Shown here one piece after another: positions 37,619 through 52,053 of a stretch of 64,000 bases of DNA; positions within the stretch are counted from its first letter, which is position 1; every line of letters starts with the position of its first letter. Source of the stretch: Armatimonadota bacterium (lineage in GTDB: Bacteria > Armatimonadota > UBA5829 > DTLH01); contig JAKPFN010000007.1 of NCBI GenBank assembly GCA_029551395.1, positions 1 to 64,000 of the forward strand, in the 5' to 3' direction. The notes beneath the pieces are model-generated. The model saw only the letters and a list, made by a program, of their open reading frames with translations. It ran no database searches and was not told the origin of the DNA. The translations under genes were made by a program, and so were the position numbers.

Positions 37619-38593
37619 TTATTTTGGTTCTGCTTCCCTGAGTTCGGCGGCCTTTTCTTCAGCCAGTGTATCGTTTATGAATACACCCGCGCCGGATTCG
37701 GACCCAGCCAGATACTTCAGTTTCTGAGGTGTCCGGTACGGCGGATAGAACTCTATATGGAAGTGATAGTAATCATGATTTTCCCCATCTGTGGGAGTTT
37801 GATGCAGCACCATCATATACGGGAGCGACATATTCCAAAGATTATCGTATTTAGCGAGCATTATTTTGAGGATGTTCGCCAAATCAGACTTTTCTTTCTC
37901 CGAAAAATCGGTCAGGCAGCCCATGTGTCCCTTCGAGAAGATGTGAACCTCATACGGGTAGCGGGCATAGAACGGGATAGCTGCCATGAATGAATCGTTC
38001 TCGATGACAATGCGCCTGCCGTCTTTCTTTTCTTCTTCGATGATATCGCAAATCAGGCACCGGCCTGTTTTTTCTTTATGCTCGCGTGAAGCGTCAAGCT
38101 CTCGCTGAATCATCGGCGGGATGAACGGATAAGCGTAGATTTGACCATGCGGATGGGTAATCGTAACGCCAATCTCTTTGCCTTTGTTTTCGAAAATAAA
38201 GACATAATCTATGTAGTCTTTGGCGCCAAGTTCTTCATACCTGTCTGTCCAGACCTCTATCAAATTGCGTATATCTTCTTCGCTCTCCTGAGCAAGCGAA
38301 CCTTCATGGTTTGACGAATATAGAACGACCTCGCAGACGCCATTTGCAGGTCTGACCTTGTAAAGCTCTGTAGGCTCGACTGCCTCCGGCGGGGCCGGAT
38401 ATTGAAGCGACGGGAACTTGTTTTGGAAAACTACTATTTCGTAGTCTTCGGACGGGACCTCGGTAGGAAACGCTCCCGGTTTGGTAGGGCAGAGAGGACA
38501 GTAATCCTTTGGGGGCATAAAGGTGCGGTCCTGCCGATGAGTTGCTGTTATAACCCACTCTCTCAAAAGCGGATGCCATCTAAGTTCGGACAT
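37619..38593 (-). CDS. galT: Galactose-1-phosphate uridylyltransferase
   Basis: A 324-residue enzyme with the active site HPHGQIYAYPF (catalytic His), the N-terminal zinc cysteines CPLCPTKPGAFP and the C-terminal HFHIEFYPP histidines. It swaps UMP between UDP-glucose and galactose-1-phosphate. GGGGAG lies 8 nt before the ATG. Followed by the radical SAM gene after 105 bp, which contains AGGGAACAGGAGAACGGGA-like purine repeats. Confidence 0.95.
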   Translation of the reverse strand: MSELRWHPLLREWVITATHRQDRTFMPPKDYCPLCPTKPGAFPTEVPSEDYEIVVFQNKFPSLQYPAPPEAVEPTELYKVRPANGVCEVVLYSSNHEGSLAQESEEDIRNLIEVWTDRYEELGAKDYIDYVFIFENKGKEIGVTITHPHGQIYAYPFIPPMIQRELDASREHKEKTGRCLICDIIEEEKKDGRRIVIENDSFMAAIPFYARYPYEVHIFSKGHMGCLTDFSEKEKSDLANILKIMLAKYDNLWNMSLPYMMVLHQTPTDGENHDYYHFHIEFYPPYRTPQKLKYLAGSESGAGVFINDTLAEEKAAELREAEPK

Positions 38594-38892: not shown

Positions 38893-39045
38893 ATCACTCA
38901 TCCTGGAAATCCGTCTATTATCAACTCGTCCGGGTAATCTATTCAGCTATCTACTCCCTCAGTAAAGCAGATTCAATTGGCAACTGCCTTCAATGTTTGC
39001 AGTGGGTTCTTTTCTGCTATTTTTGGCATGAAGTAGAAGAAGTAC

Positions 39046-39150
39046 AAAAAAAAATGCCCGTCCAGTTCTGCTAGACGGGTTTGCGAAGGTTTTAGCCTTC
39101 TCAAATTGCCACAACACATTAGGAAGGAGAAAAAGATGTTTTTTCTCTAT
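39046..39150 (-). ncRNA. Candidate sigma54-dependent small RNA
   Basis: About 105 nt on the minus strand. Three hairpins: GAGAAAAA/TTTTTCTC at the 5' end (39126-39148), GAAGGC-TAAAA-CCTTC in the middle (39084-39100), and CCCGTC...GACGGG (39057-39079) followed by nine Ts, an intrinsic terminator. There is no open frame on this strand. Its start is predicted 12 bases after a perfect sigma54 promoter. The opposite strand reads as AAGGAG plus a 10-codon frame (39136-39168), so a leader-peptide reading is the alternative. Confidence 0.6.
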
Positions 39151-39160
39151 AAAAGATATA

Positions 39161-39176
39161 TGCAATAATCGTGCCA
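39161..39176 (-). promoter_or_regulatory. Perfect sigma54 (-24/-12) promoter
   Basis: On the minus strand TGGCACGATTATTGCA matches the consensus TGGCACG-N4-TTGC at every conserved position, with GG and GC 12 bases apart as required. The predicted transcript is the small RNA at 39046-39150. Confidence 0.7.
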
Positions 39177-39307
39177 ATTGCCCGTACTTTTACCAGAGGT
39201 GAAATAAAATTATTTTTTAAATCCTGCACTGTACTAATTATTTGCCTGGTTGATTGCAGAGCAGGATTTGCGGGTACATTTTTAATGTCAGAGTTCAGGA
39301 GATGGGC

Positions 39308-50452: not shown

Positions 50453-51790
50453 CTATTCGTTTGTCGGAGGTATGAATCCGAATTCTCGAATTTTACTGCG
50501 AAGCGTTTTTCGGTCGATTTCAAGAATATTCGCAGCGGCTGACCGGTTCCAATCACAATAAGTCAGAACACGTTTAATATGGTCGCGTTCGACATCTCGC
50601 AGAGATTTGACTGCACTTGCAGATTTTCTCTTTGCTTGAGGTTTGATTCCGTTAATGATGAGATGGCCGGGTTGAATACAATTGCTGTCACATACCATAA
50701 CACATCTTTCTATGCAGTTTTCCAGTTCGCTTATGTTGCCCAGCCATTCGCAGTCGATTATCTGCTCAAGCGCAGCGCTGGAAATAGATGACACCTGTCT
50801 GCCTGTCTCAGCAGCATATTTCTTTATGAAGTGGTCTACAAAGGTAGGAATATCCTCACGTCTTTCTCTTAACGGAGGCAGCGTTACTACAGATTTACTA
50901 AGCAGTTTATACAGGTCTGCATTGAAGTTGCCGGATTCCACTGATAAAGCCAAATCCTGGTCTGTTGCAGCAACCAGCCGAACGTCAGCCGATACTGCAC
51001 CATCAGGCCTTACAAACCGCTTTTCTTTCAATACCTGGACCAGTGCAGCCTGCATTTCTGCGCTAAGGTAGGCAATTTCAGTAAAGAAGATTGTTCCTCC
51101 GTGCGCCAGCTCAAGCCACGGAACCTTATTGGGACTATTATTTGAAGACAGACCAAAAAGTTTATCTTCAAGCTCGGTTTCCGAAAGCCCCGAACAACGG
51201 ACTTTCACAAACTGACCGTTAGCACGCTTGCTTTGGTAATGGATAGCTCGTGCAAGATACTCTTTTCCAGTTCCCGGTTCGCCGCAAATGAGCACTGGTG
51301 TATTGGAAGGAGCCACCTGAGAAGCAATTGATCTGGCTTCTGTGACTGGCTGGCCTTTGCCAATAGGCATATCCAGTCCGTAACGTCTAAGCAGCTCAGA
51401 TTGAAGATACCTGTTCTGACTTATCAGCCGCAGGCGCTCCAAAATTCTATCTACCTTGAGGCTGATTTCTTCGGTGTTCAGCGGTTTAAGGATATAATCC
51501 CATGCGCCCAGCTTCAATGAATCCACTGCGGCACTTGCGGTATCTACACTGGTCATAACCAGTATAGCGAGGTCAGGGCATTCCTCTTTTATGGCTTTGA
51601 TGGCCCTGCGTCCGTATACTTTTGGCAGACCTAAATCCAGGATAACCAGGTCATACGGTAATGAGCAGGCGTTAGAGGCGGCTTTTCTACCGTCTTGGAC
51701 TTCAACAACAATATGTCCCATACCTGTCAGCAGGTCATTGATTAAAGTCCTGCAACTGGGATCTTCATCTACTAAGAGTATCCTGGCCAT
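50453..51790 (-). CDS. NtrC-type response regulator with a degenerate AAA+ domain
   Basis: About 445 residues. A receiver domain (phospho-Asp52, Lys102), an AAA+ domain with an intact Walker A GEPGTGKE (170-177), and a C-terminal Fis-type helix-turn-helix (NRSAAANILEIDRKTLRS). Three parts needed for sigma54 activation are altered: the GAFTGA loop is replaced by SSNNSPNKV (residues 215-223), the Walker B Asp is Thr237 (FFTEI), and the two arginine fingers of the FREDLYYRL pattern are Asn290 and Leu296 (FNADLYKLL). It probably binds DNA and ATP but cannot remodel sigma54. The start ATG is preceded by weak GGAAAAATT. Confidence 0.88.
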   Translation of the reverse strand: MARILLVDEDPSCRTLINDLLTGMGHIVVEVQDGRKAASNACSLPYDLVILDLGLPKVYGRRAIKAIKEECPDLAILVMTSVDTASAAVDSLKLGAWDYILKPLNTEEISLKVDRILERLRLISQNRYLQSELLRRYGLDMPIGKGQPVTEARSIASQVAPSNTPVLICGEPGTGKEYLARAIHYQSKRANGQFVKVRCSGLSETELEDKLFGLSSNNSPNKVPWLELAHGGTIFFTEIAYLSAEMQAALVQVLKEKRFVRPDGAVSADVRLVAATDQDLALSVESGNFNADLYKLLSKSVVTLPPLRERREDIPTFVDHFIKKYAAETGRQVSSISSAALEQIIDCEWLGNISELENCIERCVMVCDSNCIQPGHLIINGIKPQAKRKSASAVKSLRDVERDHIKRVLTYCDWNRSAAANILEIDRKTLRSKIREFGFIPPTNE

Positions 51791-52053
51791 AAATTTTTCC
51801 AGGCACAGCACTTACTGGCGGTGGGCATACAATAAGTAACCGTGTCCGCTTGCTTGGAGATTTTTTGAAAGATGGCTGTTAACTTGCCAACCTGACAGAT
51901 TATAACCGCCGACCGGCTGCTTTGGCAAGGTCTATAATAATGAAAGCTAATACAGCAATGTGCCGTAATTCCTGCAGATTGAGGCATTGAGGTTTAAATT
52001 TCTTAACGAGATTAGAGTGGCAGAAATTATTAGGTGAAATAGTTCATAGCCTC

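Follow-up and report, generated by a model that had tools for sequence, protein, structure and literature searches.

We analyzed a 64 kb stretch of an Armatimonadota genome (hereafter the window) and found on its minus strand, at 39177-39047, a locus best read as belonging to a multicopy, class-specific family of small RNAs (sRNAs) that would depend on sigma54, act in trans, and block the translation of PEP-CTERM mRNAs; we put the probability of this reading at roughly two in three. The features behind it can be read directly from the genomes: a promoter and a terminator, their conservation, loss together with rpoN, complementarity to PEP-CTERM leaders, and sigma54 promoters upstream of some PEP-CTERM genes themselves. 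The open-licence literature that we searched describes no sRNA for Armatimonadota and ties none to PEP-CTERM proteins or exosortase substrates. As far as that literature shows, this would be the first well-supported sRNA family for a phylum with few cultured members; its promoter can be read, its antisense core can be tested, and its targets form a coherent class. Regulation of the exosortase/PEP-CTERM system, previously known only at the sigma54 promoter, would also gain a post-transcriptional layer.

A preliminary description of this DNA had proposed a perfect sigma54 promoter and, behind it, a short structured RNA, and both proposals held up. The promoter, TTGGCACGATTATTGC at 39177-39162 on the minus strand, matches the -24/-12 consensus TGGCACG-N4-TTGC with 0 mismatches and is the only such match in the window, against an expectation of ~0.03 from base count. 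Consensus sites with up to two mismatches are about as frequent as chance predicts (22 versus 18.8), and therefore only the perfect site is informative. Counting C39162 as position -12 places the predicted start at 39150, from which the RNA would extend ~104 nt to 39047, in keeping with the ~105 nt first estimated. It closes with the strong terminator CCCGTCTAGCAGAACTGGACGGG, whose stem (39079-39057, minus strand) is followed by the nine T residues originally noted, at 39055-39047. The predicted RNA folds into three hairpins with an energy of -30.7 kcal/mol (z -3.1 relative to shuffled sequences). The interval had also been called free of open frames; a 72-aa frame with a TTG start (38959-39177) does run through it mechanically, but its start lies within the promoter and relatives conserve no counterpart of it. 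The neighbors are galT (37619-38593, minus strand) and a divergent cytidylate-kinase-like gene on the plus strand, with its start at 39254-39305. The sRNA region matched no Rfam family at gathering or relaxed thresholds, nor did eight loci from relatives at gathering score. With promoter, hairpin, and terminator conserved on the minus strand in relatives, a sigma54-controlled short structured RNA at this locus is strongly supported, and the locus and its relatives probably constitute a previously undescribed, sigma54-driven sRNA family of one Armatimonadota class.

Searching 61 relatives with the sRNA region by blastn yielded matches in 13 genomes, including tandem copies in three (G014, G020, and G026), each with its own promoter and terminator. 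A sequence profile built from the promoter and the antisense core (matches counted at E 3e-6 or better) detected both parts in 21 of 28 class genomes. In 291 genomes of the phylum, the only matches beyond the class came from four genomes, through the promoter part alone. Taken together, these comparisons place the element far beyond chance. Exact pattern matches in Betaproteobacteria (L025, L029) have neither hairpin nor terminator and were set aside as chance. Genes flanking the sRNA differ among relatives. The genome from which the window derives holds five copies, two of them with a sigma54 promoter (the window locus and C32:29005). The other three (C105:64986-65090, C35:3750, and C151:14720) retain core and terminator, lack a clear sigma54 promoter, and possibly use another sigma factor or are decaying; the first of these sits ~1 kb past the end of the window.

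Presence of the RNA tracks rpoN. The window's own genome, for which the presence of rpoN had been proposed as a check, encodes two copies of the gene. Within the class, 22 genomes have an rpoN that scores above cut-off, and 20 of them contain the sRNA; the remaining two (G007 and G012) have rpoN and PEP-CTERM genes, with no recognizable sigma54-type copy of the sRNA. Among the six genomes without rpoN, the sRNA occurs only in G025, which is 69% complete, so that every well-covered genome of the class without rpoN is also without the sRNA (Fisher p 0.001 for co-occurrence, the genomes not being independent). At least three lineages, represented by G013, genus g6, and G024, have lost rpoN, and we detected no full-length sigma54 activator in G013, G006, G008, G016, or G024. 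This phyletic co-occurrence is what would be expected if the sRNA needs rpoN. In G008, a genome without PEP-CTERM genes and without the sRNA, what is left of rpoN (C43:31741-31884) is degraded and interrupted by two stop codons.

Comparison of the homologues resolved the RNA into conserved and variable parts. The promoter 16-mer is near-invariant in 22 aligned homologues, and across the family the stretches TTGGCAC-N5-TTGC and CUCCUUC are nearly fixed. The antisense core, CAUCUUUUUCUCCUUCC (39122-39138, minus strand, as are all parts that follow), is the most conserved block of the RNA in all families and is perfectly complementary to an ideal Shine-Dalgarno (SD) sequence, spacer, and AUG, GGAAGGAGAAAAAGAUG (as DNA complement, GGAAGGAGAAAAAGATG). 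In the main order of the class a second block, UUAAAGUGUUGUGG, lies 3' of the core; its unpaired counterpart in the window, GUGUUGUGG at 39109-39117, is invariant or nearly so in its own family and order. Hairpin 1, GAGAAAAA/UUUUUCUC (39127-39147), forms between the 5' leader and half of the core. Hairpin 2 (39080-39105) consists of GAAGG-CUAAAA-CCUUC with flanking UUUG/CAAA and has a variable counterpart in relatives. The intrinsic terminator, CCCGUCUAGCAGAACUGGACGGG plus its U-run (39047-39079), varies freely in sequence; nonetheless, 35 of 36 copies have a terminator, located 60-126 nt past the inferred start, versus 8 of 36 shuffled controls.

The three hairpins first described are thus correct for the window copy, but of these parts the class as a whole shares only the antisense core and the terminator. 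Compensatory changes had been anticipated in all three. In a plain MAFFT alignment, covariation was limited to the terminator (double changes in 5 of 9 pairs) because the columns of hairpins 1 and 2 are misaligned. Hairpin 1, which joins leader to core in most families, does occur in compensated variants (GAGAAAA/UUUUCUC; GGGAAAG/CUUUCCC in L012; AGAAAG/CUUUCU in L054), but it is weak or absent in family f4.

A search of the class for complements of the core, using GAAGGAGAAAAAGATG with up to one mismatch, returned the sRNA genes themselves and a few protein genes, five of which encode a signal peptide and end in a PEP-CTERM signal: L034 in the window's own genome, L100 (G027), L101 (G026), L119 (G021), and L107 (G012). 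The L107 leader additionally holds CCACAACACTTTA, the complement of the second conserved block. The exact target CCACAACACTTT was found almost only in sRNA genes, plus one PEP-CTERM leader and intragenic matches. For a broader test, we collected PEP-CTERM genes by protein family (PF07589), excluded the five found by pattern to avoid circularity, and computed duplex energies over positions -60 to +15, taking as controls ATG genes from those genomes with matched SDs. The 56 PEP-CTERM genes paired at -25.0 kcal/mol and the 165 controls at -19.5 (p 1.5e-10), the p-values for pairing being optimistic because the PEP-CTERM genes are partly homologous, the start codons were chosen by script, and the control sample comprises 20 stretches. 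The advantage also holds against secreted controls without a PEP-CTERM signal. It amounts on average to a few kcal/mol, and near-perfect pairing is confined to few genes (L107, L119, L100/L101, and L034). In family f4 (G019), PEP-CTERM leaders paired no better than controls, in a sample of 2 genes only.

Complementarity of the core to SDs is generic, and the SDs of PEP-CTERM genes are stronger than average. The sRNA could therefore be a broad, sigma54-dependent anti-SD regulator with many unrelated targets, among which PEP-CTERM genes would merely be those with strong purine-rich leaders; some control genes, too, pair at about -30 kcal/mol. We regard this alternative as unlikely. The PEP-CTERM difference survives SD matching, and the second block, which is independent of the SD, is specific to PEP-CTERM leaders. 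When this block alone was shuffled in genomes of order f2 (family f2), 33 PEP-CTERM genes lost 3.1 kcal/mol of pairing (0 of 300 shuffles equalled the intact block), whereas 80 control genes lost 0.6 kcal/mol (19 of 300). Paired by itself with the leader upstream of the SD, the block scored -9.2 in PEP-CTERM genes versus -7.1 when shuffled (1 of 300), with no difference in controls. This second-block complementarity vanishes where the sRNA has been lost. G013, a member of family f2 without rpoN and sRNA, has kept its PEP-CTERM genes, and their leaders show no complementarity; there the second block scores -5.7 versus -9.2 (p 3e-5), worse than most shuffles. At the level of sequence, the complementarity is specific to PEP-CTERM leaders. 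Because this sister genome has lost the RNA, rpoN, and the target complementarity together, the mechanism lends itself to direct testing.

A rival in which the sigma54-dependent RNA titrates a protein (Hfq, or some other RNA-binding protein) and does not pair with mRNAs appears improbable. The RNAs are multicopy, short, and U-rich, the genome encodes Hfq, and CrcZ offers a precedent as an RNA that titrates Hfq; titration, however, would leave the exact SD-spacer-AUG complement and the conservation of the second block unexplained, and we saw no repeated protein-binding motif within one RNA. The preliminary description had also pointed out that the region lies upstream of the galT cluster. The strand is indeed the same, as a sigma54-transcribed leader or attenuator of these neighbors would require, but the position carries no functional weight: the sRNA unit is closed by a terminator of its own, and relatives have other genes around it. 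With nearly every copy closed by a strong terminator, each tandem copy equipped with promoter and terminator, and the downstream genes differing between genomes, we consider a galT leader very improbable. Least credible is a plus-strand leader peptide at 39136 (MFFLYKRYMQ), for which GGAAGGAGAAAAAGATG would read as a perfect RBS and start, since no such peptide is conserved: relatives have no such frame, have one without a start codon, or show unrelated frames of 3-88 codons, while the minus-strand promoter and terminator persist.

Under the favored reading, a sigma54-dependent antisense RNA directed at PEP-CTERM mRNAs, an NtrC-type activator would open the sRNA promoter and transcription would stop at the RNA's own terminator. 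Hairpin 1 would mask part of the antisense core. The core CAUCUUUUUCUCCUUCC and, in its own order, GUGUUGUGG would then pair with the SD/start region and the leader of mRNAs for PEP-CTERM (exosortase-sorted) proteins. With SD and AUG covered by pairing, translation would be expected to be repressed, possibly with help from the Hfq protein encoded in the window's own genome (hfq).

The activator is probably a receiver-AAA+ protein phosphorylated by a neighboring histidine kinase with GAF domains. In G019, G020, G021, and G023, the only sigma54 activator we saw is a conserved protein of ~400 aa with receiver and AAA+ domains, carrying a GSFTGA or GAFTGA motif where read; Pfam shows no DNA-binding domain in the G020 protein. 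The gene adjoins a histidine kinase with several GAF domains in G020 and in the window's own genome. By elimination, this protein without a DNA-binding domain, partnered with the GAF-domain kinase, is the likely activator of the sRNA, in a search that could have missed more divergent sigma54 activators. We rejected one other candidate and set a second aside. The window itself encodes an NtrC-type regulator with receiver, AAA+, and Fis domains (50453-51811, minus strand), which has a related gene in G001; it has no GAFTGA motif and is therefore probably unable to act on sigma54. Elsewhere in the genome (C102; L271 7709-11747), rpoN2, a histidine kinase, and an NtrC-type regulator lie inside a flagellar gene cluster. 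We set this pair aside given its flagellar setting and the four sRNA-bearing genomes that have one rpoN and no such activator.

PEP-CTERM genes can have sigma54 promoters of their own. Scored with a matrix derived from the sRNA promoters (calls at 14 or above), such promoters precede 9 of 79 PEP-CTERM genes and none of the 309 control genes (p 4e-7). Of the four loci outside the class that matched the promoter part of the profile, three precede a protein gene, PEP-CTERM-like in two cases: L070 and L071 (G227 and G030, from another family of the phylum) have the same sigma54 promoter directly before these genes, which suggests that the sigma54/PEP-CTERM link is old in the phylum. In Proteobacteria, sigma54 likewise controls PEP-CTERM genes, with PrsR as activator (Haft 2006, PMC1569441), and pepA, a PEP-CTERM gene, is RpoN-dependent (PMC9850573). 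That PEP-CTERM/EpsH regulon with PrsK/PrsR shares with the Armatimonadota system sigma54 promoters before PEP-CTERM genes and a two-component activator; the portions available of the two papers mention no sRNA for it (PMC1569441, PMC9850573). None of the 28 class genomes has a PrsR (TIGR02915) above cut-off: the best candidates fall below it, and the favored one, unlike PrsR, lacks a Fis-type DNA-binding domain. With sigma54 promoters on both PEP-CTERM genes and the sRNA, the sRNA appears to extend a conserved sigma54/PEP-CTERM regulon with a post-transcriptional arm. We advance tentatively, at rather less than even odds, the fuller model in which an activator without a DNA-binding domain acts from solution and switches on a few PEP-CTERM genes while the two-block antisense RNAs silence the rest, so swapping the surface-protein repertoire.

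Several known sRNAs invite comparison. The Qrr RNAs are multicopy in several vibrios and depend on Hfq, and their covariance model is in Rfam; their activator, LuxO, combines a DNA-binding domain with enhancer sites upstream. In Vibrio they operate with sigma54 and the NtrC-type regulator LuxO (PMC10162802), and the likeness extends to a TGGCA-N7-TGC promoter, an NtrC-type two-component activator, and a short RNA that represses post-transcriptionally. The Armatimonadota sRNA differs in belonging to another phylum and matching neither Qrr nor any other Rfam family, in a candidate activator that apparently lacks a DNA-binding domain such as that of LuxO, and in its predicted targets, PEP-CTERM surface proteins. 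By analogy, the Qrr RNAs would be its closest functional counterpart, but an unrelated one. GlmY/GlmZ of Enterobacteria are also sigma54-dependent, and CrcZ/CrcY and GlmY/GlmZ work by protein titration or by activating glmS. CrcZ/CrcY of Pseudomonas depend on sigma54 as well (PMC6292655). Both pairs differ from the Armatimonadota sRNA in sequence and structure. Pxr of Myxococcus is sigma54-linked. It too is described as having three stem loops and paralogous copies, but it governs fruiting-body development in myxobacteria (PMC5684412, PMC5568312). The Rfam search showed no sequence relation to LhrC of Listeria or NgncR_162/163 of Neisseria. To our knowledge, these siblings are not driven by sigma54. 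These CU-rich RNAs resemble the present family in being multicopy siblings that carry stretches complementary to the SD (PMC5880928, PMC9973317).

The class also harbors a second anti-SD sRNA-like element, CACAAACAACCATCTTTTCCTCCTTCC(CTCCGGGCTTCGC) followed by a terminator, at L106, L108, L111, L115, and L118 (G018, G007, G011, G004, and G002), with further matches in G014 and G015. In place of a sigma54 promoter, this element has TATAAT-like -10 boxes.
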